Source: Agarophyton chilense
Taxonomy: Eukaryota; Rhodophyta; Florideophyceae; Gracilariales; Gracilariaceae
Assembly: GCA_030374765.1 (NCBI GenBank)
Contig: JARGXX010000051.1
Span: forward strand, 1 to 46,846
Length of the DNA stretch: 46,846 nucleotides
Reading direction: 5' to 3'
The notes beneath the pieces were generated by a model. The model made no database searches and was not told the DNA's origin. It saw nothing but the letters and a program-made list of their open reading frames with translations. The translations under genes were made by a program, and so were the position numbers. Shown here piece by piece: positions 1 through 42,299 of this stretch (the first letter of the stretch is position 1; each line of letters starts with the position of its first letter).

Positions 1-870
1 AGAGGCAAGATAGTGTCTAACTTCTTCAGTGACTTCGAAACTTTTGTTTCGAGAGAATTTCAACCTGCGACCGTGTAACTCTTCCTTATGACCGTCATGT
101 GAAGACTCGAAAAGGATGATATACTCGTTTCGACATTCGAGTACGCAATATGGTCCAACCCACTTGAGTGATTGTTTTTTAGTCCGCTCACGCTGCAGTA
201 CACCCCGAAGAATGGAGTAACCCTTGGTAAATATGATTCCGTCCAAGGCGAATTGCAGCTGTCTAATGCGGTATAGTTGAGCCTTTTTTAATGTCTTTGA
301 GTTCAAGAACTCCCACTTTCTCACCAACTTTCCGGTGAATAGCAGTAAGCGGCGAGTCCTGGTTATGATCAGTAAACACCGTCAAAGACAACGGTTATCG
401 AGTCGGTAAATATCGGATTGTTCAAAGCATATTGTACAACTGGCAAAATACTGGGGCAACAGCTTTTCGGGAGCTGGTTACTCAGAAAGAAGAGCACGAG
501 ATACGCTTAGGAGCTCTGGGCAGACTACTTCAACACTTCCATTTGACCAAGTGCAACACGCCCAACGTGGAATGATGAGATGGCTTGGTCCTTTTCTTCA
601 GAACACGAACGACTTCGTTCTTGAAACGAGAGCCGCGTTTACAGACCCCCTGGTTAGGACAGACCAAACGCTGCAAAACTGTTTATCAAAAAATTTTGCT
701 GCGACTTCAGCTGTGATTTCGGTCGTGGTTGTGAGCCAAAACTAACCGCTGTGATCATTTTTGACTACCAGAACATACAAAAAAGCCATCCTCTCCACGT
801 GACATGTAGCAAAAGTCGAAGTAAAACAATTCATTAGGTTGTAGACATGCAGTTTGTGAAATTAAAGCTA
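1..870 (-). pseudogene. Ty3/gypsy integrase fragment (core and C-terminal part)
   Basis: Reading the minus strand from about 870 toward 1 gives broken integrase-like frames. An FDF-type first catalytic Asp region lies near 820, a V-K-N-D-H-S-G segment and a TTTTEITAEVA stretch near 690-760, and an integrase C-terminal segment (KWVGPYxVLE, then GRRLKFSR) in 1-200. The order and wording match the better preserved integrase of the neighbouring gypsy at 3135-4418, but the sequence is diverged and has several stops and shifts. It is therefore a second, older gypsy remnant on the same strand. Positions from 558 onward also exist at 39943; positions 1-557 have no partner in this window. The missing upstream part would lie beyond the unrecognised DNA at 871-2540. 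Confidence 0.65.
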
Positions 871-2540
871 CAAACTGGGAAAAGTGATTGATTCGAATCC
901 ACATTAAATACGGTTTTCTACATGTGCATTACGAAAATGCCGAGAAGTTTTTTTAAATGCTCACCGCATGAAATCTAGGCTTAACTAGAATTCCGAAAAC
1001 ACGGAAACATTGTTCAGCAGGGCATTGCATTCCCTCATATGAAACTATCCGGGTTTAGTAGAGAAACACAACCGTTTCTCAGCTGCCTCAACTCTGAGCA
1101 CATTCGGAAGCAGCATATTCTAAGCTGTAATCGGGTGCGAGTCTTCTTTCTCTCTCACCATTTGTGGATTGCACTTGTACCCAGAAGTTCAAATATGTAC
1201 TTTGAACTTTGTCTTATGCACGGGGCCCTCTCTTTCTGTAGCTTTCGAAAGAACATATCATCTTTAACCGCTGCACCTTTTGAACAGTCGAGATTGAAAT
1301 TCTGGCAACAAAAAACCTGTTTCGCTTGGTGATACTTGTTTTCCTTTCTTAGCAAACCCCAACATCCTTTTTATCGGTACTCTCAACGCATATTCGAAGG
1401 CTAGCGTGAAGACAAAGAAGCGGAGGAGGCGAATCATGTCTCAGAGCCAAGATCTTTCGAAAGCTCAATACGTGATCGAAGTGAAGTTCCATGCCTATTC
1501 TTTCCGTTTCAATCTACGCACCTGATGACCTGCTACCCCGTACAGAGAGGCTATTAGTTGTTCAGAAAAGTCCAACATATAGACATCTTTTGTTTTAGTG
1601 GAAAGGATGGAATGTCGTGGGTATCAAATACGTAATTCAGTATGGCGTACTCTTTTCCGTGCACCCGCCATCAGCATTACACAGAACGTGACATAGAAAA
1701 TCGATCCATCACTACGAATTCACGCCATTTGGTTGAATCACTGGACTATGGAATGATACTTTCTAGAGATTCCCATTTCGGAACAAAACTCTGCGGCACG
1801 AATTCATTGGAATTCCATACCACAGGAAAAAAAGTTGCAACTAAAATTGGAGACGAGAGCAATCAAAGACTGCACTATCAGCCTACAGGAACAAACGACC
1901 CGGAACAATTCACGACACCAAAGCCCCGTAGAACAGCAGAATTAACATCTCAGATAAGTTCCAGACACTCTGAGAAGGCCAGTGAACTTTAATCTGGCGC
2001 GAAGTAGTTCGAAATAGAGTAAATCAACAAGTTCGACACTTTCTTGAAGTCATCAATGATGAGATGGTATTAATTTTGACATGTGACTTTGTCTATTTCG
2101 AAACTTCTTGCATACTCCTTAAAAATGTCTATCTGTTTCATGACAGCAGGTGATAATTAATTCGCTTTCTTGATGAATCGTGTCTATGTTTAAATTAATG
2201 AAAATCCGTAGGAAATGTAATATTAAACTTCCCAAACGGAGCTGAAAGGACACCATGGTACAAAACAGTTGCTGCTACGCCCACGCTTTGTACTACTCGT
2301 CGGTAAACCTCAGACTTGCGCCTGCAAAACTGTCAACGTCTGTCAGAATGAAGTGGGCTTTGGGAGTTGATGACAACAGAGCTCTAAACAGTAGAAGTCA
2401 TAATATCAGAACTCAAATGCTAGGTCTTCTCCTTCCGAACAGGAGTTCAAACTGCTCTTCAATCAAAGTTTTCCTACTTTGAGTTGGGGCGCTTTCGAGC
2501 ACTTCATATATGTCTATCAAGCACTAGATTCCGTCTTCCG
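871..2540. other. No recognised gene; duplicated spacer
   Basis: I see no transposon domain here. The sequence recurs at about 40240-41960 with substitutions spread evenly. A plus-strand frame at 1642-1992 (116 codons) is open in both copies (41003-41312 in B). Its amino-acid differences between copies are frequent, so I see no sign of protein constraint. It may be an insertion that split the gypsy whose integrase lies at 1-870. Confidence 0.4.
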
Positions 2541-2550
2541 CCCACTCGGT

Positions 2551-2820
2551 TCAATGCAGGAAGCGCAATTCCATTTTGGACATATACGACTTCAGCTTGT
2601 TCAACAATTTCTGTCTCGTGTGAAAGATCGTCAGGACAGTGATCAATAACTTCGTTGGCGATGAAATGGCTATAAAATTGCGTATGAGATCTTGAGGCAT
2701 GCTATGAAGAACTTTGGTGTTGTTGACATGTCGCGATTCGCGCTCGTCGCACCTGACGCAAAAGTATGGGCACCAAGAGAGGTTCCACGCTGTGTCTGAT
2801 GCCCCCAGACTCTTTGACAA
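2551..2820 (-). other. Open frame conserved in both duplication copies, unknown
   Basis: An 89-codon minus-strand frame has a recognisable counterpart at 42031-42297. Shared wording includes SKSLGASDTA, a CPxFCVxCDE cluster and SRHVNNTKVLHS. The C-x3-C-x2-C cluster resembles the zinc-binding region that precedes a gypsy integrase core, but the normal HHCC spacing is not clear. It could be the N-terminal integrase part belonging to the fragment at 1-870. I cannot confirm this. Confidence 0.3.
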
Positions 2821-3134
2821 ATTCTGGTATTCTTTACTATATAGTAGTCTCTGGTGCTCTAAGACCAGCTCGTAGGTTGCGTTTCTAGATTTTCTATGAT
2901 GCGTGCGCTGCGTAGGTTTCGCTGTCGTCCAGCAGCTGTCTACTTCGAGGTCCTATGCAGTCCAAGCGCCCGCATCTCACTCCCGACTGCAGTCCACTCT
3001 GGGCTGAAGTTGCGCTATTTCATCCCAGTTTCGCAGCACTCTGCTTTGGGGTGCACCTACGCATCCCAGATGTGCTCGTGGGTGGTCAACAGTCCCCCTA
3101 TGACCAATTTTTCGAAAGGAATATGGAAGATTGG

Positions 3135-3677
3135 TCATAAAAAGTTGACCGGTCTCTTTTGTCGTGTTGTACCGTCCTTCCTTACTTGTTCCAGATATTC
3201 TTCTACCAAGTCTGGTACATCGCGCTGTAGCCTTTCCAATGGGACCCAGTATGTTTCGCTGTCTTCCAAGCCTTTCCATTTGACCAAGATGTCCAATATG
3301 CCGTCTTCCTTTATGATATTCTGGAAATCTTCGAACACTAGTAGCTCGTTTTCTTGATAATAGAGGTGATTTAGAAGTTCTTTGGTGATTTGAAAATTCT
3401 TGTTCCGGTAAAACTTTAACCACCGGCCGTGCACTAGTTCCTTCTTTCCTGAAAGCAACTGTTCAACTTCGAATATGTATTCAACATTGCAGCTTGTCAC
3501 TCGATATGGACCTGTCCAGTGTAGCGAGAGTTTCCTTTTAACTTTCTTCTGTAGCAATTCTTTCAACACAAAGTCGCTCTCAGAAAATTTCACGTTCCGT
3601 ACTCCCGTTTTCCTCTTGGGTGATTCTACCGCTGCTTTTCGTTTCCCGTTAGAATCTGTGGCGACTTCCCGGTGCAT
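3135..3677 (-). pseudogene. Integrase C-terminus with chromodomain (gypsy-1A)
   Basis: This is the 180-codon tail of the gypsy-1A polyprotein. Residues about 55-95 form the integrase C-terminal fold (LHWTGPYRV, then LVHGRWLKFYRN). Residues about 130-168 form a chromodomain (ILVKWKGLEDSETYWVPLERL followed by VEEYLE). It keeps the aromatic W and YW positions expected for methyl-lysine recognition. Chromodomains of this kind are thought to guide integration to marked chromatin. The rest of the integrase lies upstream on the same strand in other frames, so it is a remnant. Copy B preserves a shorter version near 42645. Confidence 0.8.
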
Positions 3678-3707
3678 GAGCTTTATTGCTTCTCTACGCC
3701 GGTTGAA

Positions 3708-4418
3708 TTATCGCAATTGCCTAATCTGTGCCTCGGTGATGGACAAAATTTCCGACTCTCTTTTGCCTTCAGTGAGTCCGGCGAACGGGCTGTCCTGCTT
3801 CAGCCCGGTAAATACTTCGAGTGGATATCGATTCTTCAATCGCTTCAACGGGGAGTTATTCAGTGCTGACTGCACCAGTGACACCACACTGGGCCATGAG
3901 GCGAATGGAAGCTGAAACTCTGACAGTAGTTCTTTTGCCGCTCTTGCTAGCTCTCTGCACACTACCTCAACTATGCCGTTGCTTCACGATGCGTAGGACA
4001 GGGTGTAGTATGCTGAATGTGCAAATGATCCTTGAGACTACGTGTCACTGTGTTCTTAAAATGACTGGCTTGATAGGAGACCCATATCCTCGAAGTTCCG
4101 AAGGCGGCCAACCATTTTATAAGAAGTTCAGCGGTTACTTCAGCCGTTGCTTCGGTTGTAGGTACGAGCCATAGATAGCCAGAGAAGTCGTTTTTGATCA
4201 CCAGAACGTAGATGTGATGTTTTTCTCCTTTTCCAATGTAGCAGTAGTCGAAATGGATTACTTCGTTGGGTTTCGTAGAGTGAATTGCAAACCATACAGG
4301 CCTTGGCACGGTAAATCTTGGTCGAATAGCGAGGCAGTGGATACAGGATGCCACGGAGTCGTTCACATCTTTGTCCATACAGTCCCACCAGAAGTGTGTC
4401 TCGATGTCTGCCTTTCAC
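3708..4418 (-). pseudogene. Integrase zinc-binding region and catalytic core, broken (gypsy-1A)
   Basis: The frame 3971-4378 starts with the zinc-binding CIHC motif and continues through VIHFDYCYIG (first catalytic Asp) and VIKNDFSGYLW. It then reads IWVSYQASHFKN, where the second catalytic Asp of the usual VSDQxSHF is replaced by Tyr. A frame change follows, with the Glu region (NGIVEV) near 3965 preceded by a TGA where Trp is expected. Frame 3708-3962 continues with the helical part (FASWPSVVSLVQSALN). Copy B has a Trp codon at the TGA position, so the two copies decayed separately after duplication. Confidence 0.8.
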
Positions 4419-4513
4419 ACTTCCTTTGCTCGGTGTCCTGTGGATCCGGTGTGTGCTGCGATTAAAACTATTAGCTTAAAAAGTGTGCCTAACTTCCGAA
4501 CCCATATAAGCCC

Positions 4514-4831
4514 TCAACTGTTTCGCCAAATGCCTTGATTCTGCTTTAAACTGCCGGGTGGCTTCTCTGGACTGCTACGTTGTGTGTTCTCCAGGTCTTT
4601 GAGTTTTGGCCAGTCGAGTTTCGGTTTCAGTTCGGGGCTTATTGGCGCCATGAGAACAGTCTCGCATGCCCTCAGAGTGGCTACTTTGACTTTGTCAGGA
4701 CTTTTTGAGGCCCAACGTGTCATAATATCACCCCAAACATTCCGTTTCTCCGGTAGATGCTGTATGATATACCTGAAACGTTTGAGCTTCATTGCCCATC
4801 TCATTAGCTTGCTAGCCGTGTGGCGTGATGT
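4514..4831 (-). pseudogene. RNase H C-terminal tail (gypsy-1A)
   Basis: The frame reads KLMRWAMKLKRFRYIIQHLP, the well-known end of gypsy RNase H that is normally followed by N-x-x-A-D-x-x-SR. Here it follows the protease frame directly, with a frame change at about 4815-4831. Everything between protease and this point (RT palm, fingers, thumb and the RNase H catalytic residues) is absent. The rest of the frame, to 4514, is the spacer leading to integrase. Confidence 0.75.
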
Positions 4832-5229
4832 GCCGGGGGTGCAATTGTGTCTTCTTTTGTGTCTCTGTAGGATACACCACTGCAGTTACCCTTCTCAGTA
4901 GGTACACTGAGGCGGCTGATACGCATACCATTGATCGCCGGGCCGACCTTCTCGAGGTGGTCGTCTAAGTTGAATTCTATTTCATTGAGTAGGGGGCGTC
5001 CAAGAATCACCCCTTTCATACTCTGATCCGTAATGAAGAACTCTACTCCATGCGGAAGTATAAGTATCTTGGTCCTGAGCAGGGTTATAAATAGGGGCAC
5101 CGCCACCCTTTGCTTTGATGTGAACACCATGAGGGCTTCTTCATTGCTCTCAAAAGCAGTCTCGAGTTCGATGGACTCAGGGAGATTGATGACTTCCAAG
5201 TTGCTTCCTGCAATGACTTGCTTCATCAA
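4804..5229 (-). pseudogene. Retropepsin-like protease region (gypsy-1A)
   Basis: A 141-codon frame lies between the gag knuckle and the RNase H tail. It contains a second-half retropepsin signature (FFITDQSMKGVILGRPLLNE) like the ILGRPFL loop of gypsy proteases. The catalytic D-S/T-G should lie just upstream, near 5250-5270, where the frame is broken. In copy B, sequence near 44630 reads like an A-D-S-G stretch, which suggests it was present before decay. The frame ends where the RT deletion joint starts. Confidence 0.65.
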
Positions 5230-5307
5230 GTCTTTTGAGATAGCACTGTAGTCGGCAAAAGAGTCTCTAATTGTGACTGCAGCGCCTCTTTCGTCGATTA
5301 AAATGTT

Positions 5308-5860
5308 TTACCTTTCATTGCTGCTCGGATGGCTTGACAAACGGGCGACTTTGATGCTTCTCTTCCCCTGCTTCTCTGCGAATAAATCGTCCAGGAGCTG
5401 CTTCCGTTCATCAGCAAAGGTAATACTACAGTCTTGGATACGGTGCTTTTTGTCGCAGTTCCTGTTCAGGCAAGGCCTCGTCCACACAGTACCGTCTGCG
5501 GCGGTTTTCTGTGCTCCTGAGTTCGAAGAATCTCGTTTCGAACGTTTTCGACTGCGCTCTATATCTTCGGGTTCACTCTTCTTCGAAACGTTTCCTCCGT
5601 CGCGCTCGTGTCTCCGCTTTATCTGCACTCGTGCAGTTTCGCCGTTATGCACTTCGACGAAAAGAGCGCTGGCGCGTTTCATAAAATAGGATATGCTTTC
5701 CTTCTTGTAATGCAATGACATGTGGGTCAGCGTACGGGTCTCGACTGGTGGTAGCGTGGTAGACCGGGTCCTAAGGTTCGAATTCTTGATGGCGGCACTC
5801 CCAGAGTACTTGGTGCAATGGGCTGGCGTTTACTGCTTATTGCTACAAGTTGGAGCAACA
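5308..5860 (-). pseudogene. Gag C-terminus with zinc knuckle (gypsy-1A)
   Basis: A 137-codon frame (5308-5721), with coding-like sequence extending to about 5850. It is rich in Arg and Lys and contains C-x4-C-x3-H-x4-C (CLNRNCDKKHRIQDC), a nucleic-acid-binding knuckle typical of the nucleocapsid part of gag. No capsid domain is visible upstream, so gag is truncated or too diverged to read. Copy B at 44680-45100 keeps the arginine-rich stretch but is broken. Confidence 0.65.
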
Positions 5861-6095
5861 ATAACGATGGCTTGAAGACTAATTAATAGAACTAATATAC
5901 CAAAGGGGGTTCTTTAGTATCCTAACTGTGCCCACCTTCATCTAAGGGAGAAGTGTCGCTCGAGCCAAGAGAATAGTACTGGCGAGGCGCTGGGATCTCC
6001 CTGGCACTGTAATGATAATGTATGACACTAATTAAAATAAAATAATAATCTGCCTGAGTCCAGCTGAGGTCGGCCAGTCGACGTGGCGTCTGTAA
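5861..6095. other. No gene seen; junction between gypsy-1A and ORF-X
   Basis: This should hold the 5' end of gypsy-1A on the minus strand. I see no LTR pair: nothing here matches the 558-3100 end. The stretch is duplicated at 45230-45460. Confidence 0.4.
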
Positions 6096-7180
6096 GATCC
6101 CTCAGGGCCCGGCAGCTTACAGGGCTCAACCGTTATCGTCGCTTCTTCACATATCTCCCTCCTTAGGATTCGGCCATTACGGCGAAGTCAAGATGGCCTC
6201 ATCATTGACCGAGGGGACGCGATCTCTTTGTCGCTCCCAGTACCATTGGGCGCGACGGGACGTCGCGTGGTCATCGCATGCGGGGATGCGACGAAGCGTG
6301 AGCTGACCATTGGCGCCGAAGGAAAATTAATTTGCTTAAGGACTGAAACTCCCGCGCGCCGTAGACACTGGCCATAGGTACATCGCCGGCGTATTCCTCG
6401 TGGTGCGGTATCCCGGTCGTCCCTTGGCTTATTCTCCCCTGACCGTCATTGGGGCCTTCCTTAGTCTTTGCTCTTCCTTTGGCGACCCAATGCGCTTCGT
6501 CTACTGTGGTTTACGCCTGTCAGTACTTTCAGGTCAATTCCATTCGTCTTCTCATCGCGGTAATTTTTCATTAGTCGCGCGCGATGCCAAACTCGCCTTA
6601 TAAGCCCGTCAGATACGCTATTCTCCCTCCGGAATATGTCGCTTCCGTCGGCTCTCCTATCCATTTCCCGGCTGACCAGCCTGTGGGGAGCGGCATTATA
6701 GCTTCGAAAAACCAAACGGGGAGCTTCTCGGGATACCAAGTGGCTTACGAACGTCACGGGGACTGCTACGACCATACAGTCGGACGGAATCCGCAAGTAA
6801 TGCGTCATATCATTCTTCCGTACTCAGTAGAAGAATCCTAAAGGTTCGGTCATATGTATCTCGGTGCCCGAAGGTTTTCCAAAATACCCGATTTTTGGAA
6901 GGGCAGCATGAATGCGCCCAGCGTCTCGTAATATAACCGATGGTTTCATTGTCCTGTAGATCTACGTTCGGCGACGCTATATTGCACCTTAATCCAAGCG
7001 GACATGCCGTACGTCCGCTGCGAGGAGGAAGCCCAATACCAGTTCAGGGTGACCAAACTCCTTTCGGACCTATACAAGGAGTTCATCCCGCCTCATGTGC
7101 GATTTCCTCCGGCGGGTCACAACCTTTTGGCGCTTATATGCTTCCGGCCGCTGTATGACCGCCTGTTTTTGGATGTCTAA
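6096..7180 (+). pseudogene. ORF-X copy A: unknown coding region, three frames
   Basis: There are three consecutive plus-strand open stretches. Frame 3 is open 6096-6374 with a conserved TAG at 6375. Frame 1 is 6379-6603. Frame 2 runs from ATG 6584 to TAA 7178. The last starts MPNSPYKPVRYAILPPEYV and would be about 198 codons, but has TAA at 6839 and 6929 where copy B has CAA and TTG. Copy B instead has a stop at 46380 where copy A has TAC. The complementary lesions show that the frame was once longer than either copy shows. The protein is rich in Pro, Tyr, Arg and Phe and I recognise no domain. It runs opposite to gypsy-1A and to copia-1. It may be a captured gene, part of an unknown element, or a host exon set. 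Confidence 0.5.
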
Positions 7181-7207
7181 TAGGGTCTATCGGAACGAGA
7201 TAAACGA

Positions 7208-7212
7208 GCCCG
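7208..7212. repeat. Target-site duplication of E2, left (gcccg)
   Basis: The 5-bp gcccg flanks E2 on both sides (again at 16324). The unoccupied site in copy B reads gttcg at 46578-46582. Confidence 0.9.
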
Positions 7213-7794
7213 TGTCGTACAATCACCTCTGGGGTCTGCTACTGTCTTGTCTCAGGAGCATGTTGACGCTCAACCTCAGAAGGTAGACATGATAAAGCTT
7301 GATGGTAACAGGTCACCGTGAAAACCCGCAGGGGCAAACGGCGGGGCAACTAGCCTACACCGTGTAGGTGAACGATGGTAGGCGTCGACGCGCGGTAAAA
7401 CCTATGTGTTAGTTGAGAAACAATGAACCAAAAGATATAGTTGTGACCCAAGTGGGGTCTGTCTTTATCAGACTAGGGTGGAGGAGGTGCAGTTCCCTAT
7501 ATGCAGTGGACTGCACCCTCCAGATCACCCGGAAGGTGCCAGCAAGGCACGGTCTCTGACCTAGTTTCAGAGACCTGGCCAGCACTGGCTACAGTGCCAG
7601 GTGGCCACTCCACTACTGAATTACTAACAATCACTCAACCAGAAGGTACATGTCAACACTACACGTGGCTAACAACACCTAGATGGTAACTCGCCCGGAG
7701 CTGCGTGGCCGATGATCCCTCGCATCCATCACCTACAAGGTCAGTGTAGTATATCGACAACCTCAAAGGTCAAACCTTCTGCCACTATACGACA
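7213..7794 (-). repeat. E2 3' LTR (left)
   Basis: A 582-bp copy of the LTR, TGTCGTA at one end and TACGACA at the other, so the termini are inverted repeats. It aligns with 15950-16323 except for about 215 bp (roughly 7404-7620) that is absent from the right LTR. That extra part is a cluster of inverted repeats. Confidence 0.9.
7445..7602. repeat. Cluster of four perfect inverted repeats inside the left LTR of E2
   Basis: Arms seen: gaccc/gggtc (7445-7459), ggtgcagt/actgcacc (7486-7493 and 7510-7517), ggtctctg/cagagacc (7551-7558 and 7568-7575) and acctggc/gccaggt (7573-7579 and 7596-7602). All lie in the part missing from the other LTR. Each arm pair is exact. Confidence 0.8.
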
Positions 7795-7809
7795 GACCCC
7801 CTTCCTACC
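7795..7809 (-). promoter_or_regulatory. E2 polypurine tract
   Basis: On the minus strand GGTAGGAAGGGGGTC directly precedes the 3' LTR. This is the expected place and composition for the plus-strand DNA primer of an LTR retrotransposon. Confidence 0.7.
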
Positions 7810-8541
7810 CGTGAGACACGCCCCGTGTCTCCTTCCACCAAACCATAAAGGTATAGAGAGCGACAGCAGCCCGGGCATCGGAGTGGTATCCGCCAGCGGT
7901 TGCTCACGGTGCGCGACGCGCGATCCCTTGTGGTTCAAAAATCGGTGCCAGTGTCGGTTGGGGAGTGCGAGTGATGACGGCGGCGGACGAATTGAGCGAC
8001 AACCATCCAGGTAGGGACTGTCATGAGGACGATGCAGTGTCAATAGCGCGCTCGCGGACACCTTTTCGGCTGTTGGACCCTGCGTTCTTGCAATTCTGCT
8101 TCTGCATAGCCCATCGTTCAACCAAGTTGGTATCGCACCTTTTTCGGTTGCTCAAACTTAATATTCCTCCTAGGTACCTGCGCGTGCCGTGCCCTCTGGG
8201 TGTTCCCACGGCTTGGCAACCCTTCAGGTATTGCTGTCCTTAATTGGCGGCATCGCGACCTTAACCGTGCTGTGCAGCTTTCCTTGAAGGTTCACTGGCT
8301 TCTCGACCTTTAAGGTTTCGTGTACCTTTTAAGGATTGATTCTTGGCGCCTGTTGGGCCTGAGCCTGCGTCGATACAACCATTGAGGTATTGACCTGGGT
8401 CCGTGGCGGAAGCTTCCGGTTGTGAGACCTTATTGGTGTTGAGCGCCCCCGTTGGTAATCGCGCGACCTTTCTCGGGTTTTTCATTCCGGTTTACCTTTA
8501 AGTCTATCACAGGATCGCGACGCCTCCACGCTCGCGTTTGA
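7810..8541. other. E2 non-coding stretch between 3' LTR and antisense ORF
   Basis: No convincing frame on either strand. It has one of the highest densities of ACC-N5-GGT and near matches, for example around 8002, 8121, 8306, 8379 and 8428. It could be the leader of the antisense frame that follows. Confidence 0.45.
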
Positions 8542-9768
8542 ACCCATTCGGTGCCACGGCGACGCACCTTGCGCCGCATCGTGGATTCGCTACCGAAAAC
8601 TCGAAGGGGTGGGTCGTCCCCATACGCAGCACCAGCGCTCGAGAGACGTGAGGTGCCGGTTACCATTGAGGTTGAAGAATTAGGCGATTCCGAGGGGATT
8701 GATACCCCTGAAGTTATGCCTTTAAGGTCGGATTGGTCGCGCTCCACGATACCTCAAAGATCAGGAACCCCTCGCGCCCGTACGATGGCAACTGTTGCAC
8801 CTGAAAGATCGATGTCGGGACTACCGGAAAGGTTGGATACGTTTGCCGTCTCTTCGGAACGTACTGAGGAGGCCTCACCTCAGAAGGGTAAATACCCGCT
8901 GGAGGATACTCGCCGATTTGGTTACAAGAACATCGTTCAGGGGACCGATTATACCGTGAAGGATTTGGACTCGTATCTCGAGCAGAGCGAGAATTACCAT
9001 TGGGATTCCCATCAAGGTTGGGAGGTTTTCGATCGTGCGACTTGGACACGACTAGACACCTGTTGGTCGATATGCTGATCCCTTCCCGTCCGAGCCGTTA
9101 CCTCAAGGTCGTAAGTCGCCTCTAAGGGTATGACTCCTACTCAACCGAGCTCCTCGCGGGTTGCTGGTCCAGTTCGACCTCTTTTGGAGGGTATTGCTAA
9201 TCCTCCGCCCCACCCTATGATGGATTCTCCGGCCGTGGTTGGTTTGTTAGCTCGAATTCGCCAGGCTTGCGTCACCAACTTTCAAAGGGCTGGGCGTACC
9301 TCCGTGGTTGCTGCATTAACACTCCTTGAAGGTTTGCCGCCGTGCCATACGAAATACATGAAGACGCTGAACCAACTTGGTGAGTTACGGAATCAGTTTC
9401 AGTTGGACATGTACCAATTGGCCACCAGTCAGGTTGCCATTCTGGCCAGCGTCTCTGCTGCTGCGCCATCTGATCCTTTGACGGATCCCCTTCTAGGTGA
9501 TAACTTGAACCCTGCGGTTTTGCAACCCGCTCTGGCGGGTCCTTCCGTTCAACCTATGTTGGTTTCAACTCCTCTCCCCAGTAGCGGGGCTACCGCTCCT
9601 TCGCTACCTTCTATGTCGATGGCTCCTAGCATTCCTGCCAGTTCTCCTTCGCGGGTAGCCAATAAAACGGGTCCTCCGAGGTTCGATCGCGTAGAGCTAC
9701 AGCTCTGGGCTTTCGGGCTGAGGTGCCTACCTCGATGCGATGTTGACCCGTTTCAGGTGCTACCGTAA
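8542..9768 (+). pseudogene. E2 antisense 3' reading frame (aORF), unknown protein
   Basis: One plus-strand frame is open from 8542 to the stop at 9768 apart from TGA at 9076 and TAA at 9112. The first half has a basic start (PRRRTLRRIV) and many Glu, Ser and Pro. The second half has a helical stretch (AVVGLLARIRQACVTNF) followed by Pro- and Ser-rich sequence. Its end overlaps the integrase end on the other strand. It lies between pol and the 3' LTR and is opposite to pol, the position of the antisense ORFs described in plant Tat-lineage gypsy elements. No ATG starts the frame; the first in-frame ATG choices are internal. I recognise no domain. It may encode a factor acting on the element, or be a decayed captured gene. 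Confidence 0.5.
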
Positions 9769-10384
9769 TACGGTCAATTGACATCGTATTCGGTATTCCA
9801 TCTTGTTCAACGGTAACGGTGTGGTCTGATGCCTTCAATACCTTATAAGGTCCCACTGATTTGGGTAGAAGCTTCGAATTGATATCTCTATCAATAGCTT
9901 CATCGCCCGCTTCATCACCCGGTCGTGGTCTTTTACCTGAAGGTGGGTTTTCTATATAGACATATTGTCCCGAAGATGCAGAGACCTCTTTGGTTACCCT
10001 ACGGTCGTAGTCGGCCTTACACCGCTTCTGGGCTGCAGTGAGGCGGCTCTCTGCATTTTTGAGAGCCCTCCTCAACCTCACAAGGGTATTTCGCTTGACC
10101 TGGGCAGGGGTCAGTGCGCCAGCTGCAGTGCTGGTGGTATGATCTCCCTGCACTACAATACCTGGGTGGTGTCGCGAAAGAACTAAACCAAATGGAGTGG
10201 TCTGCGTTGACCGGTGTACCTGAAGATTATAAAAGTAGGTGAGCGGTTGCACCAGCTCATCCCAACCAGTTTGGTGCTCTTCCGTATAGTGTCGTAGCCT
10301 TGATACCAATATGTGGTTAAAGCGCTCGACCTGTCCGTTCGTCTGCGGGTGGTAGGCAGTAGTGAAATAGTGCTTGATACCCAA
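9626..10384 (-). pseudogene. E2 integrase, second half
   Basis: This 252-codon frame starts with GIKHYFTTAYHPQTNGQVER, which carries the catalytic Glu of the integrase core. It continues through a typical helical part (GWDELVQPLTYFYN) and the GPYKVL C-terminal fold. It is joined to the 741-codon pol frame by a single frame change at about 10385. No chromodomain is visible at the end, unlike gypsy-1. The 3' end overlaps the antisense frame by about 140 bp. Confidence 0.88.
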
Positions 10385-12408
10385 GTAACCAAGAGGTTAC
10401 AGACTGCTTCGAAGAACTTTAATGCCAGGTTTGAACCATTATCGGTAAGGAAGTACAGTTTTGCACCATACGGGTAGACCCAATTGTTGAGGAACGCGAT
10501 CGCCGGCGTTGTTAACTTCGTATCCTTTAAAGTAATCGCTCCCGTGAGCTTCGAGATCCTGTCGGTGATCACTAGAATGTGCTGATACCCATTCTTGGTC
10601 TTGGGAAGTGGTCCTAGAAGGCCTTTCGCAACAAACTCCAGCCGACCCGCTGCTGGAAACAGCTTGAGGTATTTTCGATGCTTTTGAATACCACCGCGGG
10701 TACGAACATAGGATTCGCATTGACCTACAAAGGTATAGATATCATGGGCCATATGAGGCCAGTAGAACTGTTGCCTCAAGGTGTAATATATACTGGTGGC
10801 ACCGGGGTGTCCCGATAGTCGCAGGGAGTGCGCGAGATACAAGACTTTCGGGCGAAGCGCTTTCGGAACCACATTTTGAAGGCCACCATCCAAGGTTGAC
10901 CTTCTCACGATGTACCCATTGTGGTCCGCATCGAATTGTGATCCTTTGAAACCAATTTGGTCATCCATTTTTCTGCAGTACGCATCCTGGACCTGTTCTC
11001 GTAGGAATTCCTCGCGGGTTACGGGCATGAAGTTCGTTTCCTCTAGGGTCGGTATCTTAGTTGCGATGTCGTTGTTCCGCAAAGCACCACTTTCAGGTAA
11101 GTACCAACATCCTTCTAGGTGTTCGCCGGTACCATTTTGGTTTGATGATACCCAAAAGCAAGGGATATCATCGTCCACAGGTTCTGTCTCTAACCCTGAG
11201 GAGTTTAAGCGTGACATAGCATCAGCTATGTTGTGCTTGATACCTGGACGGTATTGTCCGTCGTATTCAAACTCCGTCAGTCTCAACCTCCAACGGGCAA
11301 GTCTACCAGAGGCCTCTGCGAGTCCGAGGATCCACCTTAAGGCGTTGTGGTCCGTGTGCAACGTAAAGCGCTCACCATACAGGTATGGACGGAGCATCAA
11401 CATGCTCCACACTACTGCGAGACATTTCTTCTCGGTTACCGTGTAGTTCTGCTCCGCCTCATTAATAGCGTTGCTGCAGTCCCCTATAAGTAATTTGTCT
11501 CCGTTGTGCTGCTCCTGCATGAGACAACATCCAATTTGGGCATGGGATGCATCCGTATCCAGCGTGTACGGTAGACCTGTTTTCGGTAACGCTAAGATTG
11601 GCGGGGACAAAGGCGCTCGTTTCAATTCCTCAAAGGTATCCATTTCGTTGTTCGATAGATTCTCAAACCGTTCAGGTTCACCTTTCTGGAGCTTCTTGTT
11701 GAGGGGAACCGCTATTTTCGCGAATCCCTTCACGAAGCGACGATAGACGTTGCATAAACCTATAATGGATCGTACGTCTGTCTGGTATCGTGGCACTTTG
11801 ACCTTCTGTACGGCTCTAGTATTACTCGGCGCAATCTCTAGGGTACCAGGGCTTATGATGTGGCCCAGGTATTCAACCGTTCTGGTAAAGAAGACGCATT
11901 TTTGTAGCTTCAGCGTCACCCCCGCCTCAGCTAGGAGGTTTAGTACGGTGCGCACGTGAGCAAAATGCTCTTCTACCGATCTGGAGTAGATGATTACATC
12001 ATCGATGTATACCAAGGCGGTTGTCCACTTACCCTTCGAAAGGATGATGTCCAGCGCCCTTTGAAAGGTGGCTGGAGCATTGCGCAACCCGAATGGCATC
12101 CGCGTGAAGCGAAACAAACCTGAATGCCACATGAAGGTCGTTTTTTCTCGATCTGTTTCACCTACAGGTACCTGCCAATAACCACAATTGGCATCCAACA
12201 TGGTAAATATCTGCACATCTCCCATGGATTCGATGCACTCATCCATTCTAGGTATCTGGTACGAATCCCTGACGGTCACGCTATTGAGCCCCCTGTAGTC
12301 CACACAGAACCTCATACTGTTATCCCCTTTCTTCTGAACCAGAACCACGGGACTAGCCCAATCTGCGTTGGCTAGTTCAATTACACCTTCTTGGAGCATT
12401 CGCTCCAT
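10183..12408 (-). pseudogene. E2 pol: reverse transcriptase, RNase H and integrase first half
   Basis: 741 codons. RT: ASPVVLVQKKG, FTMLDANCGYWQ (first Asp) and YIDDVIIYS (the YxDD active site), residues about 20-170. RNase H: TLDTDASHAQIGC at about 290, then TDHNALRWILG and the IADAMSRL end. Integrase: H-x3-H present (LSGHPGATS) but the C-x2-C is CESY, so one zinc ligand is Tyr. The first catalytic Asp of the core is lost: LEFVAKGLLGPLPKT stands where MDLLGPL is expected. The second Asp (LTDNGSN) is present. The protein then changes frame near 10385. RT looks intact, but the integrase is dead. Confidence 0.93.
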
Positions 12409-13042
12409 TTCTTTGAGTTCTACTTCTCTCGCCTTCGGACCTGCGCGGTATGGTTGCTGATAAATAGGCTTCGAGTCCGGGAGGAGCTCGATGCGATGCT
12501 GTGTGGCCTTTATTTGGCCCAGATGGCCTGACCACGTCGTTTTGAACTCCTCCAGAAGGTCGATAATACGGCCCCGCAGTTCGCCGTTTTCTTCACCGAT
12601 CTGGATTGCATCTTCCCATTGCTGCTCAGGGTCAGGTTCATCTTACTTGTCTACCGATTCCTTATCGGTTAGCTCTGGGTTAAAGTTGGTGTTTATCGAT
12701 ACCTTTGCAGTTGTGGACGCATTTGCGCACCCCCCCTTCCTTATCGAAGGCGACCTCGCCGAGATCAGTGTGAGCTACGGTGAAGTCCCCTTGTGATGCC
12801 GGTAGTGCGATGCCAACATTGGTATTCTTCGGCAACTTCACGTTGTGACTGCTGAAGTTGCTGAGACACACCTTAAAGGGTTGATTTGGGATGCTGTAGA
12901 CAATCCCGTTGGCCATCAAGGTGAGGTATCGATGTGCTAACCTCGGATGGTTTTCTAGTATGACCAGCCCTGGGGTCGCACACGACACCGGTACCAATAT
13001 TTGGTGCAATGGCGGGATAACAACCTGTTTGGTAAGGCGCAC
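12409..13042 (-). pseudogene. E2 protease-RT linker
   Basis: Frame 12680-13042 (KQVVIPPLHQILVPV, then GIVYSIPNQPFKV) is the beta-rich connector that follows the protease in many gypsy elements. A short broken stretch leads to the RT start (12408), with recognisable YRAGPKAREVE-type sequence at about 12420-12460. Several shifts separate it from pol. Confidence 0.65.
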
Positions 13043-13105
13043 TTTGTTGGAGACCGTTTCGGTGGATATCGTCTTCTTCGGTTTAAAGAACCATCCCCGT
13101 TTGGT

Positions 13106-13593
13106 TTACGTATTACCTACAATGGCAATTCGTCCCCCGTGACGTAGGGTGACGGTACGGGAACCAGGAAGAATTGCTTTGACATGTCTGTCAATGAAGT
13201 TCGTACCTAGTAGGCAGTCTGTTGGTAAACGGTAGACAAAAAAGAATTGCAGTCTTACCTTGAGGTGTCCGAGCTGCACCAAGTGGTGAGCATACCTCGA
13301 AGGTTTAATGGGCACTCATTTGCATCCACCAGCGGGTTTTTGTCGGAAGGTCAGCTCAAGTTCCGAAGTACCGCCTCAGGTATGACGCGGGAGTTCAGGA
13401 CGTTTGGGCCGGCCACAGTATTCCACACGCAGGTGACCGGGACCGCAAGGCGATCGGATAAACACATTGAAGCACGTACTTTATAGTTGTTGTACTTCAT
13501 AAGACAAACCGGAACTGGTTGTGACGTGTTGTCTTCCACCTTCAAGGTTCTGGGTATCGATTGGCCTTCCAATTGAAGGTTGCGTTCGGCCAT
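13106..13593 (-). pseudogene. E2 protease, active site lost
   Basis: Frame 13351-13593 ends in a retropepsin-like segment: VTCVWNTVAGPNVLNS. The catalytic D-T-G is replaced by N-T-V. Frame 13106-13315 supplies the second half (DCLLGTNFIDRHV, matching the usual LLGxDFL-type loop). The two pieces are in different frames. With both Asp and Gly changed, this copy could not process its polyprotein. Confidence 0.75.
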
Positions 13594-15101
13594 TACGCCA
13601 ACCGTTCGGTGTTTTCCTCCTGTACGGGAGGGGTTGAGTCCAAGTTTGGTGTTTCCTCGATGGTATTGACCTGTACCGGTGTACGGGGTTGGAACCTATT
13701 TGGTGCTTGCGTTGAAGACTTATAGAGGCGTTGGTGATTCTGCATGCGAGTCTGAGTCAACTGGTCACTCATCGCTGGGGGTAAATTAGCGCAATTGCTT
13801 GCCAAAGGGTCTGTCGCAATACAGAACTAGCAAACGAGGCCTCCAGTTTGGGGGTCTCGCGTTACCATTGAGGGGGGCTTCGAAACCTGGTTGGTAGGAG
13901 AAGTGGCGTAGGATGTGGGTGGCGAGTTATGGGAGCTTGTTCCCTGCATCCTCTGCCAGCTCATTGCACTTGGCGGCGATTGTACCGAGTTTGGTGTACG
14001 CGTTGACGACCAATTCCCTACCGTCGAAAGTTTCGAGAACCGCCCCTGGGTCGCTACCAAGTGGATAGCGGTCCCTGTAGGTACTTCGATGTGCCAGCTG
14101 CACTCTGAGGTTGTGGTCTCTTCAATTTCCAAGAAGGACCTTTTCGATTTTTCCTTCGAGGTTTGAGGAATGGCTGGTCTCTTTCCCAGCCGAAGAGTAT
14201 CTCCAAGGCCCTGGGAGTATCGAGCCAGCCCATTGTATTCTACCTTTCGGTTAATGGCCAAGTAGTTGCGTACCTGGCAACGGATCGCTTTGTCGACATT
14301 GTCAGCCAATAGCGACCTTAACCTAGAGGTAGTGAACACATTACCACAGCGGGTTGCCAGATTCCACAGCGCGAGCGAAAACTTCGATTCGGTTTTCCCA
14401 GACCTTTGATGGTAAGCGAGGACTTCCGAATAAGTCTCTTGGATAACCTCATCGGTGGCGTATGTTTCCAAAAGGAAATTGACCACCTCTGGGTATGACT
14501 CCAACATCTCTGTGCCATCCTAATCCATCGCTAAGGTATTGCCGCGGAGCCTTCCCTGCAGCAAGTAGTATGCTTGTCATTTCAGGTAAAACTGAAATAG
14601 TCACATAGCAGCGCCCTCGGAAAAACCATTTTGGTCACATGCAAGCTTGAACTTCTGTAGAAACTCAATCACCGCAATAGGATCCGTAATTGTGAAGGTT
14701 GTGTCACCCATTTGGAAGCTGAGCTTCTTGTGGTGCTTAGTAATCTTCTGAGCAACCTCTTGGGTGTATTCAGACGACTTGTTGATCAACCGATAGTTCC
14801 TGTAGTCAACCGCTTTGGTGAACATATCGTTCAAGGGTTGGTGCACCTCCAGGTCTATTTCGGTGTCCGACTCAGAGTCGGACGACTCATTGTATCGCTT
14901 CTTACCTTTTCGGTTCTTTTTCGACGACTTCTTCGTCGACCTGTTCGGTTTCTTCTTCTTCTTACCTTTACGGTCATCATCCGACGATGAACTCGTATCG
15001 GAACTGGAGTCCGACGAGTCCGGGTCTGAATCATCCCCTCGATTATTTCCCGTCTTCGTCCTCCGCTTCTTACCCTTTCGGTTTCTTCGTCGCTCATCCA
15101 A
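13593..15101 (-). pseudogene. E2 gag: charged region and capsid
   Basis: One frame from ATG 15101 to 13593, interrupted by stops at 14601, in 14520-14600 and at 13827. Residues 1-75 are a Lys/Arg block alternating with Ser/Asp runs (RRRNRKGKKRRTK, then DSSDSSSDTSSSSDDD). The capsid part follows (PIAVIEFLQKFKLACDQNG, MLESYPEVVNFLLETYA, KFSLALWNLATRCG). No zinc knuckle is visible. The basic-acidic repeat could bind RNA or nuclear factors. Confidence 0.7.
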
Positions 15102-15280
15102 CGAGTCAGACGAATCTTCCTTGGGATCACCTCCGTGGGTATCGTTAGAACGAAACCAGTAATTGGTGGCAGATAAATGTCTTGAGGATCTACATTCCCC
15201 GGGACCTCTTGACTCTGCTTCGGACCTTGTAGGTACTCACTTTCAGTCGGTAAGTGTTTGGAATGGGTGTAATGATCCAT

Positions 15281-15901
15281 TTAGAACCCTTGTTGTATGC
15301 GCTTTGCAATGTTCACCTGTGTAGGTCGGGATTCTGCGAATCCCTCGGAAACCCCAAGGTCTTGCACCGCGCGGTAAACATGCTCCCTAGCATCTGTAAA
15401 GAGGTACTGTTTCACCATTTCTGGTATCCTGTCCGATAGCTCTTGAGCTGCTCGGTCAACCACAATACGGGTAAATGCATCGGCGTCCATTGAGGTTGGA
15501 ACCATCCGGGTATCCGACTTCTCCTTTAAGGTTAATGCATCCTCGACCGCGAGGGTGACGAGCGCTTTCGCTTGCTCTTCGAGCTAAGGCCATAGCTCCT
15601 CGGCTGCAACCTAAATTGGTAATTCCCTTTGAGGTTCTGTTGCCATAGGCGGCGGACCATGTACCTTTACGGTTTTGTCCCGAGTGTGCTGGAGCAGCTC
15701 CTCGGGGTTCTCTAGAATCGGGTGAGCCGATGGGGCTCCTTTAATAGCTTTTTGGCTTGGCGGGGCGCTCGCACCACGCGTATTCCGTTTAGGTTGTTCC
15801 ATTTTTGACCAATAGTGGTATCCTGTATTGCTTTGCTGGATTTCCTGAAACCAAATAGGTGTACAAGCGTCCAATCCTTCTCGGAATCTCGTTTGAACCA
15901 T
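15281..15901 (-). pseudogene. E2 gag N-terminal part
   Basis: The frame starts with ATG at 15901, about 30 nt after the primer-binding site, and reads MVQTRFREGLDACTPIWF. In the same frame after a stop it continues at 15505 (MDADAFTRIVVDRAAQELS). It is in another frame than the downstream gag at 15101, so a shift lies between 15281 and 15101. Its position directly behind the 5' LTR supports it as the natural start of gag. Confidence 0.6.
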
Positions 15902-15932
15902 GAAGATACGACGAAACCTAAAAAAACTTTCT

Positions 15933-15949
15933 AAATCGGGAGACCAAAA
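15933..15949 (-). promoter_or_regulatory. E2 primer-binding site
   Basis: On the minus strand, 3 nt after the 5' LTR, the sequence is TGGTCTCCCGATTT. It starts with TGG as expected for pairing with the CCA end of a tRNA. The tRNA cannot be named from this window. Confidence 0.6.
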
Positions 15950-16323
15950 TGTCGTACAATCACCTCTGGGGTTTGCTACTGTCTTGTCTCGGGAGCGTGT
16001 TGACGCTCAACCTTAAAAGTTAGACGTGATAAACCTCGATGGTAACAGGGCACCGTGAAAACCCGCAGGGACAAACGGCGGGGCAACTAGCCTACACCGT
16101 GTAGGTGAACGATGATAGGCGTTGACGCGCGGTACAACCTAAATTACAATTACTAACAATCACTCAACCAAAAGGTACATGTCAACACTACACGTGGCTG
16201 ACAACACCTAGATGGTAACTCGCCCGGAGCTGCGTGGCCGATGATCCCTCGCATTCATCACCGACAAGGTCAGTGTAGTATATCGACAACCTCAAAGGTC
16301 AAACCTTTTGCCACTATAAGACA
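15950..16323 (-). repeat. E2 5' LTR (right)
   Basis: A 374-bp LTR starting TGTCGTAC and ending TAAGACA. It lacks the 215-bp inverted-repeat segment of the left LTR. Differences from the left copy are mostly transitions. Confidence 0.9.
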
Positions 16324-16328
16324 GCCCG
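16324..16328. repeat. Target-site duplication of E2, right (gcccg)
   Basis: Matches 7208-7212. Confidence 0.9.
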
Positions 16329-22749: not shown

Positions 22750-23673
22750 TCAACTTGATCTTCCGATGACTTCTTGCACCTCCCGCCGCACCGCGGTACA
22801 TCTTGCGTCGGCAACCGGCCCGTCGAAACTCAGTGGTCGATACCGTCTTCTCTCCCGGCTTCTGTGACTCACTGCAACATTTCCGATAGGACTTTCCCCA
22901 AAGGCGAATGGTGACCGAGTACCCGGTGTCATTGAACCCAGATCGTTGCCTGGACTTCTCCGCACGCTGTGCTGTCAACTCAGAGCCATATTCCTCGTGG
23001 ACGGTGACATGGGAGAAACAAAAATCGATCCGATTTGTTTTGGGGATCTTTGTGTCTTCATGATGCGCATAGCACTCTGCAATAATTTACGATCAATATC
23101 CTCAAACATTTTCTTTTGTTCCCTTCCCTGACGGCGGCTTGCCCGTCTGGAAAGGTCATTCAAACCTTCTGAAGCTTGGTCGTCTGCCTTACTCGCTCGC
23201 AATGCTTCCGCTAATCTCTTTGCATCTCGGCCTCCATTATCTTCGCCCGTCAGTACGATGAAGTTGCTCATGAAAGGCACAAACACTTCGTTATAGAAGC
23301 GAATGATATCGCCTGTCTCTTCAGCCGTCGATTCCGGTCGTGGCCCACTATCATCGGCAGCATCTTCCGCCAACAAATGCCCGAAATCTCCGAGAAAAAT
23401 GTTACGGGACACTGGTGGAGAATTGCTCAGAAATGTGGAATCACTTGTGTGCTCCAATTGATTGTAGTGCCACACGATATGGCGGAACTGCAGTTGGATA
23501 TGTTGGATCTTGGCCACGCCATCTACCACAAACAGGATGATCAAGTCAATATGTCTGTTGACTGTCAAATTCCATCTGCACCACAGAGCATACTGCACGC
23601 TTTTCCACACTGCCGAACGAAGGTTGGTTTGGGTGTCCAAATCAGGGGATCGCAGGCAAGAGAGAGAGAGCAT
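22750..23673 (-). pseudogene. Retinoblastoma-family protein, pocket B and C-terminal part
   Basis: The minus strand from about 23613 reads VWKSVQYALWCRWNLTVNRH, DGVAKIQHIQLQFRHIVWHY, GDIIRFYNEVFVPFM and IGSIFVSPMSP, then MTPGTRSPFAFGESPIG and PLSFDG. These align in order with Rb pocket B (IWTLFQ..., ICKVKNIDLKFK..., IIVFYNSVF...), the IYISPL motif, MTPRS...IGES and the KLRFD end. Rb proteins bind E2F/DP and LxCxE partners to hold cells before S phase. A single in-frame TGA at 22975-22977 splits the two conserved parts. A pyrimidine-rich tract and cggcag at about 23612-23660 look like a splice acceptor at the start of the homology. Pocket A is not visible upstream. Probably a truncated pseudogene; a coding last exon with readthrough is less likely. 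Confidence 0.85.
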
Positions 23674-24013
23674 TGCTAAGCAACGAGTGCGCGCGGTTGG
23701 CAGCGTGCCGGGGCATTATGCGGGCGTACTGCTCGTCGCGCAAGACCGTGAGAAGGGTTTCGAGTGCATGGTTGGGTTTGTTGAGCAAAGAGACGGCGTC
23801 CATGACGGCGCACATGAGCGTGGTGTGATGAGCGGTGAAATTGGGCTGATCGGATGCGCGCAGGGACGAGAGCAAGTCGAAAAGTAGGGTGGCGACTACT
23901 TCAAAGTGATTTTCGTGAAGGTGATGGAGCACGGCAAGAAGCGCGGAAAGGATGGCGTGCGTATGAATGTCGACAGCTAGTGACAGGATGCCATGTAATG
24001 CGCACGCGAGCAC
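23642..24013 (-). CDS. Hypothetical helical protein fragment
   Basis: A 123-codon frame, Leu-, Ala- and His-rich (ILSALLAVLHHLHENHF, VVATLLFDLLSSLRAS, HALETLLTVLRDEQYARI). It looks alpha-helical and HEAT-like. It is not Rb pocket A. It ends by TGA just inside the presumed intron or leader of the Rb fragment. It could be an exon of a gene cut by copia-2, or an upstream exon of the same transcript. I recognise no family. Confidence 0.35.
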   Translation of the reverse strand: MLACALHGILSLAVDIHTHAILSALLAVLHHLHENHFEVVATLLFDLLSSLRASDQPNFTAHHTTLMCAVMDAVSLLNKPNHALETLLTVLRDEQYARIMPRHAANRAHSLLSNALSLLPAIP

Positions 24014-25760: not shown

Positions 25761-26478
25761 CAGGAGACAAGCCAGTGACCACCACAATCACTTACTGTCC
25801 AACTGTGTTGATATCTCGAATCACTTTGTTTCCTTCGACGACACCAACTGCGGCAACTGCACCCAGAGCAACGCCGAGCGCATTTCGTTCTGCTTGTTCG
25901 TGTCATCTGCACCAGCTTCTGATTTGCATACGCATGTGCGTCTCTTGGAACCCAACGAATGCTGTCGTATGACAGACACCGGCGCCTTGCCATGCGGTCG
26001 ACATCCATGCTGACATGCGCTTCCCTCTGTTTTGGAACGAATATCAACGGCTGTTCAGTCCGCGATTTTGTTGGAGAGCACAGCTCCTGAGTTCTTTCTG
26101 TTCTGGTTTATTGCGACAAAACTGGTCCAAGATGATTCACACCGCGTTCAAATTTTGGTTTTCACAGAGGATGGAAACCAGTGTGCTTTTCGGCTGCGAT
26201 GAGAGATGATGCTCCGTGACGAAAAACTTCGAGTACTTTCGGACACTAGATCGAATTGAAACAGATCACACTTTTCAGTACTTGGACGCTGGTGTCGCCG
26301 GCGAACACCGAGCTACCTTGCGTCTTTGCCATCAAAGTTGGTCGAGAAATATCGCCCTCTTTGTGTTGAAGCGTTTCCCTCACAGTTTGTTCTGTGAACT
26401 TTACACGCGTTTCAATCCTTGCGTCTTCTCTCGAAATAAGCAAGGCATCTCACACAACAAACAACCCAATCGTTTAAG
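25761..26478. other. No recognised gene; 5' flank of the zinc-finger gene
   Basis: Overlapping frames on both strands (25628-26047 minus, 25711-26013 plus), none with a recognisable domain. The final part is the presumed promoter and leader of the gene at 26479. I see no clear TATA box. Confidence 0.35.
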
Positions 26479-27927: not shown

Positions 27928-28731
27928 TCAGTGTTCTATCGCCTGAAGGTTATGCTCAGGAGAACTGCTTGGAAACTTCTTGCGTGGAATACAACGCTTG
28001 CGGGGCAGAACAAGGCACGGGAACTGCATATTGGTGAATGTTTTCTGAAGAAAACCCCTGTGAAATCTCTGGCGCTCCTTCTTCCAGACTATTATGTTCC
28101 TGAAGTACTTCCAGAACGTTGCCTTTTCGCCACACTTTTTCCTCATGGTGGCTGTTGTGTGGCATTTCCGTGGGACTGGAATGCAGTCTTGGTTGGGGTA
28201 AGCGCAACTTGCTTCCTGAGACAAATTGAGAGACACCGGACGGAAGGTCCCACTTCTACTCCGTTGGACATCACAAGAAATGGATTTATGGCCAAATCCA
28301 AGTCTTGAATCTTCCGGGCGGCCAAATGAAGATTCCAAACTTGGGAGAGTTCTCGGTTGAGATGTTCTAAGCGGGTGTTCTCGGAGAGAGCTGGTTTGAT
28401 ACACGGATGGAAGTCTTGAATCTTCCGGGCGGCCGGAGATGGATTCTAAGCGTGGAAGACTGCCCGTCTGAGGGTTTCCAAGCGGCGGTAGTTTAGTTGG
28501 AGAGCGGGGGGGAAACCCATCTGGGAGTCTTCTGTTTTCGTTGCTGCGATTTGGGTCGTGCAGCCCACATGCCGAAAGGCCTTGTGAGTAATTAGTATAC
28601 CTATCTTGATACCGCTGGCAATCGTAAACTGAGAGAAATTCTCTAGTACGCGAAATAACAAGACACGCATTATAAGCTGTCTTCTTTTCCACACTTTTCT
28701 CGCGTTCTATCAGGAAGCAAGACCGGATCAT
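27928..28731 (-). CDS. Truncated inverted paralogue of the zinc-finger gene, no fingers
   Basis: 267 codons. Residues about 65-260 match the N-terminal half of the 26479 gene: NRSNENRR, LPPLGNPQTGSLP, two repeat units, PEISQGF/SPEHNLQ wording. Similarity stops at about 27950, just before the region leading to the fingers. The first 60 residues are unrelated (MIRSCFLIEREKSVEKK). It converges on the full gene. It could be a pseudogene, or encode a protein that keeps only the N-terminal repeats. The frame has no internal stop. Confidence 0.5.
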   Translation of the reverse strand: MIRSCFLIEREKSVEKKTAYNACLVISRTREFLSVYDCQRYQDRYTNYSQGLSACGLHDPNRSNENRRLPDGFPPRSPTKLPPLGNPQTGSLPRLESISGRPEDSRLPSVYQTSSLREHPLRTSQPRTLPSLESSFGRPEDSRLGFGHKSISCDVQRSRSGTFRPVSLNLSQEASCAYPNQDCIPVPRKCHTTATMRKKCGEKATFWKYFRNIIVWKKERQRFHRGFLQKTFTNMQFPCLVLPRKRCIPRKKFPSSSPEHNLQAIEH

Positions 28732-28739
28732 GTCCTCAA

Positions 28740-36274: not shown

Positions 36275-36315
36275 CACCGGTAGGAAGAGAAGTGGTCGAA
36301 GGTCTTTGTTCCGAA

Positions 36316-42297: not shown

Positions 42298-42299
42298 CC

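Follow-up and report, generated by a model that had tools for sequence, protein, structure and literature searches.

The window analysed here is a 46,846-nucleotide stretch of the red alga Agarophyton chilense (assembly GCA_030374765.1, contig JARGXX010000051.1, positions 1 to 46,846 of the forward strand), and it contains a long terminal repeat (LTR) retrotransposon that is saturated over its whole length with the inverted motif ACC-N5-GGT. The element is of the Ty3/gypsy type: it has two LTRs and a 5-bp target duplication, GCCCG, and a Pfam scan finds RVT_1, RT_RNaseH and Integrase_H2C2 in that order in pol. Its parts are listed below, with the number of exact ACC-N5-GGT (N5) sites for several of them.

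7213..16323, coding strand minus: whole LTR retrotransposon, Ty3/gypsy type, delimited by the LTR termini and the flanking target duplication
7208..7212: target-site duplication GCCCG, left copy, 5 bp
16324..16328: target-site duplication GCCCG, right copy, 5 bp
7213..7794, minus strand: 3' LTR (left), 582 bp, 6 N5 sites
15950..16323, minus strand: 5' LTR (right), 374 bp, without an internal stretch present in the left LTR, 6 N5 sites
14601..15236, minus strand: gag N-terminal open frame, 211 amino acids, 8 N5 sites
13827..14519, minus strand: gag C-terminal open frame, 230 amino acids, 2 N5 sites
10183..12642, minus strand: pol open frame with reverse transcriptase, RNase H and integrase zinc-binding domain, 819 amino acids, 10 N5 sites
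9626..10396, minus strand: integrase C-terminal open frame, 256 amino acids

A match to rve_3 in the frame after pol (E 0.00067) falls under its cut-off, and the integrase end frame has no chromodomain match at E 0.001. The closest named protein match to pol comes from A. chilense (77% over 54% of the query), followed by one from Chondrus crispus (52%); the remaining matches are mostly unnamed environmental proteins. A search for relatives in viral contigs matched none.

By exact count the element holds 56 N5 sites, with starts from 7225 to 16289, where the first-pass annotation of this DNA had counted about 51 by hand and expected about 2 by chance. In 300 dinucleotide-preserving shuffles of the element the mean is 2.93 (standard deviation 1.78) and the maximum 9. 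The surplus claimed earlier for N4 and N6 is also present (19 and 22 sites, shuffle means 2.64 and 2.75) and extends to N7 (15, mean 3.03); N3 and N8 are at chance in the same shuffles (1 and 4 sites, means 2.74 and 2.64). Together, the 112 ACC-N4..7-GGT sites of the element have a median start-to-start gap of 63 bp and a maximum gap of 431 bp. ACC-N5-GGT exceeds every other gapped trimer pair of spacer 0-24 in its enrichment within the element (56 versus 6.5 expected from trimer frequencies), and no pair of comparable excess appears in the neighbouring elements gypsy-1 and copia-1 or in three other stretches of the window. The reported near absence of the motif next door was borne out, with 3 N5 sites in the 6.7 kb of gypsy-1 and none in the 5.06 kb of copia-1; the 37.7 kb of the window outside the element contain 7 in all. 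Within the element the sites do span LTRs, gag, pol, non-coding DNA and the region of an antisense open reading frame (ORF), as had been proposed, at 10.2 and 15.9 N5 sites per kb in the LTRs, 7.1 in gag, 6.6 in the antisense-ORF region, 5.6 in the 5' region and 4.2 in pol. A peak in the LTRs and a minimum in pol would be expected if coding constrains site density.

The excess inside genes was compared with synonymous-codon shuffles that preserve both protein and codon usage (1000 per frame). Pol carries 10 N5 sites against a mean of 2.73 (maximum 8), and the N-terminal part of gag carries 8 against 1.31 (maximum 4), both beyond anything the shuffles produced; the C-terminal part of gag is marginal (2 versus 0.40, P = 0.038), and the integrase C-terminal part shows no significant excess (3 versus 1.21, P = 0.08). 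Around the sites, the half-sites are constant and the spacer and flanks nearly free, save for an enrichment of A/T beside the half-sites. Site context is flat (on average 6.6 of 25 positions alike, with about 6.25 expected), and no tandem array was found within 7213-16323. Because the sites have neither a common context nor a tandem arrangement, the unusual duplication process once suggested does not account for the saturation. Helical phasing was considered as well and rejected, the best periods between 9 and 12 bp disagreeing among stretches (10.1, 10.2 and 11.6; resultants 0.13-0.14).

The motif had been described as a property of one retrotransposon, but at least two families bear it. A second element, at C1:118372-137880, is divided by an inserted transposon and belongs to a sister family whose pol is 58-60% identical in amino acids to that of the first family; at least 4 copies of it were found (44 of 5387 candidates scored), 2 of which were examined. 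Its 11.26 kb contain 71 N5 sites (8.4 expected), 47 N4, 26 N6 and 14 N7, and ACC-N5-GGT is again the top trimer pair. N5 density is alike in the two families (6.1 and 6.3 per kb). Their LTRs give no significant alignment (best E 0.44) and contain 6 N5 sites in 582 bp (first family) and 8 in 521 bp (sister). A chromodomain match in the sister family (PF00385, E 0.063) is weak and under the cut-off. The transposon-like insert (C1:122418-130247, that is, L010 2418-10000 and L011 1-247) has a 957-amino-acid frame on the minus strand and is almost motif-free.

Copies of the first family are numerous, its size being a lower bound because the searches scored 40 of 919, 40 of 572 and 83 of 1263 candidates. 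Seventeen copy-bearing 10-kb stretches hold 25-58 N5 sites each, although some contain the element only in part; in 25 stretches covering the antisense ORF, each about 2.6 kb long, the number is 6-16. Across the 79,762,974 bases of the genome searched there are 36,542 N5, 24,914 N4 and 17,882 N8 matches, compared with 21,482, 25,683 and 21,826 for the respective backward-pattern controls. The left insertion flank of the window element (7199-7212) recurs at eight LTR loci, which lie on several contigs, and in two further stretches (L001-L008, L013 and L015), from which it follows that the window is part of a segmental duplication present many times.

Comparison of the two families, at third codon positions of conserved amino acids and with one copy per family, indicates that the sites have been kept. 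Of these third positions, 37 of 46 agree when the site lies in the window element and 40 of 50 when it lies in the sister, in other words about 80%; the figure is 54-60% for unpaired ACC or GGT (29/48 and 30/56) and 43% elsewhere (219/504). Sites differ from unpaired half-sites at P = 0.043 and 0.007 and from the rest at P below 2e-6. Over all aligned DNA columns, 22 of 227 differ in sites and 93 of 410 in unpaired ACC/GGT. The aligned coding blocks contain 31 N4-7 sites in the first family and 40 in the sister, 17 of them at the same place; for N5 alone the numbers are 16, 15 and 9. Since third positions outside sites are near saturation, unconstrained sites should have decayed, and yet the sites were kept while many of their positions moved. 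By this comparison, the sites are maintained between families by selection, with about half of the positions differing: density is constant and positions turn over. These results, together with the synonymous shuffles, uphold the earlier idea of a two-fold symmetric site under selection both within and outside codons.

Such a site could be read as duplex DNA by a protein or as a hairpin in RNA. According to the second possibility, the sites would be dispersed packaging signals, ACC-N4..7-GGU forming three-pair hairpins on the genomic RNA that Gag recognises. We examined mismatched variants; the counts of double variants, of other inverted trimers and of flanks (below) omit the right LTR of each element so that LTR sites are not counted twice. 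The most enriched single mismatches change the outer A to T (ACC..GGA and TCC..GGT), which breaks a pair (43 versus 9.3). By contrast, double variants that restore pairing are barely enriched at N4-7 (TCC..GGA 25 versus 20.4, AAC..GTT 25 versus 21.7, ATC..GAT 14 versus 13.4; for comparison, ACC..GGT 254 versus 56.5), and other stable inverted trimers are enriched mildly at most (for example, GCC..GGC, 31 versus 16.8). With pair-breaking variants enriched and re-paired ones hardly so, this pattern of mismatches favours a reading of half-sites on duplex DNA over an RNA hairpin.

We propose that ACC-N4..7-GGT, with its optimum at N5, is a pair of half-sites for a sequence-specific protein that would bind duplex DNA as a dimer, and that selection makes two related families of LTR retrotransposons carry this site throughout, at about one per 80 bp, every bound molecule being expected to benefit the element. 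To a dimer-binding dyad selected along the whole length in both families, with a putative protein as its binder, we give modestly more credence than doubt. On the comparative evidence, the excess, the spacing rule, the conservation of synonymous positions across families and the turnover at constant density are together a real, strong and selected feature; protein binding, and DNA over RNA as its target, are what we infer from it. The most likely purpose would be to keep the provirus or the complementary DNA (cDNA) in a state that favours the element, be it open chromatin, a nuclear position or protection, because the sites span the full length and are not confined to a promoter or packaging region.

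Several observations weigh against this interpretation, the first of which concern pairing. The two bases that flank the dyad are complementary less often than chance would give (34 of 255 versus 65.1 expected, with 0 of 5000 permutations as low), and this avoidance holds in both families and from N4 to N7 (sites of 7213-16323 and L009-L011). It is specific to the motif: no avoidance is seen for ACC..GGT at other spacings (22/60 versus 15.0; 65/227 versus 56.6) or for other inverted trimers (378/1335 versus 332.8). A plain dimer would be unable to sense complementarity, so hairpins at the sites may be costly in RNA or cDNA, or pairing may itself play a part. The first pair inside the dyad is commoner than expected in the sister family (57 versus 41.8), which likewise makes pairing seem relevant. 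G.U-compatible variants are enriched as well (22 versus 9.8), although they stand barely above their own reverse complements (18 versus 11.9) and so lend the hairpin little. Finally, a spacer range of four steps is unusual for a rigid dimer, while loops of 4-7 bases of free sequence suit a hairpin. Given the tolerance of broken pairs, we nonetheless regard RNA packaging signals as an unlikely explanation of the motif.

The remaining contrary observations come from within the first family, where conservation is weak. At 30 of 720 site columns (N4-7 pooled) the window element departs from the majority of copies, compared with 47 of 708 in unpaired ACC/GGT (P = 0.046) and 418 of 7088 in other columns (P = 0.064). 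In the antisense-ORF alignment, N5 columns have no deficit of shared variants (11/102 versus 25/228), whereas N4, N6 and N7 columns do (3/126). Segmental duplicates of the same insertion also differ less at sites (10/1002 versus 60/2368, from only three related copies), which selection at the level of transposition leaves unexplained, as none is expected there. The slower synonymous change expected inside motifs is thus seen between families, and within the first family the conservation of site columns is weak or mixed. A test of fixed differences gave an apparently strong result (2/300 in sites, 33/727 in unpaired ACC/GGT, 404/6924 elsewhere), but it is biased and was left unused: sites were picked in the window copy, whose own late mutations were scored as shared. 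Pol codon positions were "shared" to an equal degree (0.047, 0.055 and 0.054).

Weak short-term conservation would fit a past burst or mutational process that deposited the motif, now decaying and without present function, and so would the presence of sites in coding and non-coding DNA alike. We consider this very unlikely in view of the flat context around sites, the conservation of synonymous positions between families and the equal density in both. Moreover, the enriched one-step variants are outer A to T, not the C to T or G to A changes that are the commonest mutations of the copies.

Another idea is that the sites are preferred targets of the element's own integrase, with copies nesting in each other as a result, and the optimum spacer does equal the 5-bp length of the target duplication. 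However, ACC lies just outside the 5-bp target in 0 of 7 distinct left insertion flanks, and on those 7 flanks we rejected this idea, to which we assign almost no weight.

A candidate binder is encoded by the element itself. Opposite gag-pol, the first family carries an antisense ORF of about 840 residues (region 8443-9765, plus strand, in the window), open in several copies (L029-L031 and L033) and conserved over dozens. The window copy lacks a central part of some 377 residues and retains two remnants.

8443..8901, plus strand: truncated antisense ORF that corresponds to residues 1-153 of the antisense protein's first piece (78% at the amino acid level)
8899..9678, plus strand: truncated antisense ORF that corresponds to the antisense protein's C-terminal part (64% at the amino acid level)

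Variants show this ORF to be under purifying selection: at codon positions 1, 2 and 3, shared ones number 59, 56 and 106 and singletons 503, 509 and 514 (P = 4.6e-5; 24 of 25 rows, L043 having been dropped as near-identical to L042). No Pfam family matches the protein up to E 10, its profile finds no solved structure beyond a best E of 0.27, taken as chance, and its only relatives found are in A. chilense.

This protein could act in a VANC-like manner, binding the sites and removing silencing marks. Its purifying selection, its position, which suits an accessory gene, and its lack of Pfam or structural relatives would all agree with such a role. Against this, the motif is present in two sister copies in which nothing resembling the ORF was detected between integrase and 3' LTR (best tblastn E 0.67), although the protein might serve the sister family in trans, and the central part of the protein is gone from the window copy. 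The footprint of CpG methylation is also slight (C to T at CpG 4.6% versus 3.4-3.6% elsewhere, CpG observed/expected 0.94), and a role against DNA methylation is therefore unsupported here. We judge the antisense protein an improbable binder. Since no counterpart of it was detected in the two sister copies and the same specificity persists across 40% amino acid divergence in pol, the proposed dimer sites are more likely bound by a host factor or by some conserved portion of Gag-Pol.

Coating against silencing, or tethering, would be a plausible role for such a factor. In a bolder form, which we hold tentatively and with more doubt than belief, the dyad would be a DNA-level coat code: the lineage would write it into its whole sequence, genes included, in steps of about 80 bp on a helical scale, and the protein would mark the element as "self" (anti-silencing or tethering) independently of any promoter or repeat. 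Were this so, selection for DNA binding would influence the choice among synonymous codons throughout a retroelement genome. More generally, if the sites are bound, the coding sequence of a mobile element has been shaped over its full length by protein binding, and red algae, for which the portions of literature surveyed hold little on transposon control, would offer a directly testable system in which the factor could be purified with the motif itself as bait.

Elsewhere in the window, 562-6122 and 39938-45492, at its opposite ends and about 39.37 kb apart, are 87-94% alike. A C2H2 zinc-finger ORF with a 111-bp (37-amino-acid) repeat lies at 26440-27756 (plus strand), adjoined at 27928-28761 (minus strand) by an inverted relative. 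An open frame at 22975-23715 (minus strand) contains a retinoblastoma B domain (PF01857, E 2e-18), and a 57-bp tandem repeat of 5.5 copies (36310-36622) stands directly behind the integrase frame of gypsy-1.

Known systems share single aspects of this arrangement. The string ACCNNNNNGGT is methylated by an engineered half-subunit enzyme of the bacterial Type I class, as the consulted part of the source describes it (PMC6158711); the sequence is identical, but the enzyme is bacterial and engineered and has no link to the element, and a literature search for the motif string gave nothing else. Papillomavirus E2 sites, ACC-N6-GGT (PMC8308518), have nearly identical inverted half-sites, to which a dimeric beta-barrel domain binds in that system. 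They differ in their N6 spacer, where the sites here have their optimum at N5 (56, with 22 at N6, 19 at N4 and 15 at N7) and number about 112 in 9.1 kb, and no E2-like domain was found in the proteins scanned. With chromovirus-like Ty3/gypsy elements the window element shares LTRs, the 5-bp target duplication and the order reverse transcriptase, RNase H, integrase; it differs in its saturation with a single dyad and in its conserved long antisense ORF, neither of which is in evidence for Ty3/gypsy retrotransposons in the titles and abstract openings of the literature surveyed.

The closest comparison, already drawn in the first-pass annotation, is with VANDAL21 and VANDAL6 of Arabidopsis and their VANC proteins, likewise mobile elements rich in one short motif with a proposed family-wide effect on the element. 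As the cited excerpts describe them, VANDALs are Mutator-like elements (PMC6446971), the VANC21 motif YAGTATTAY sits in non-coding tandem repeats with coding probes bound poorly, and VANC6 motifs differ from it (PMC5735166, PMC10398659). The comparison holds as an idea and fails in anatomy: those are DNA transposons and this is an LTR retrotransposon with reverse transcriptase; there the motif lies in non-coding tandem repeats, and here single dyads are spread over pol, gag and non-coding DNA, with one motif common to two diverged families. The feature thus appears to resemble a VANC-type motif array in its working, yet its element class and motif arrangement place it outside that system. Should the sites be bound, it would be a functional cousin of those arrays, reached via point changes instead of tandem repeats and common to diverged families.

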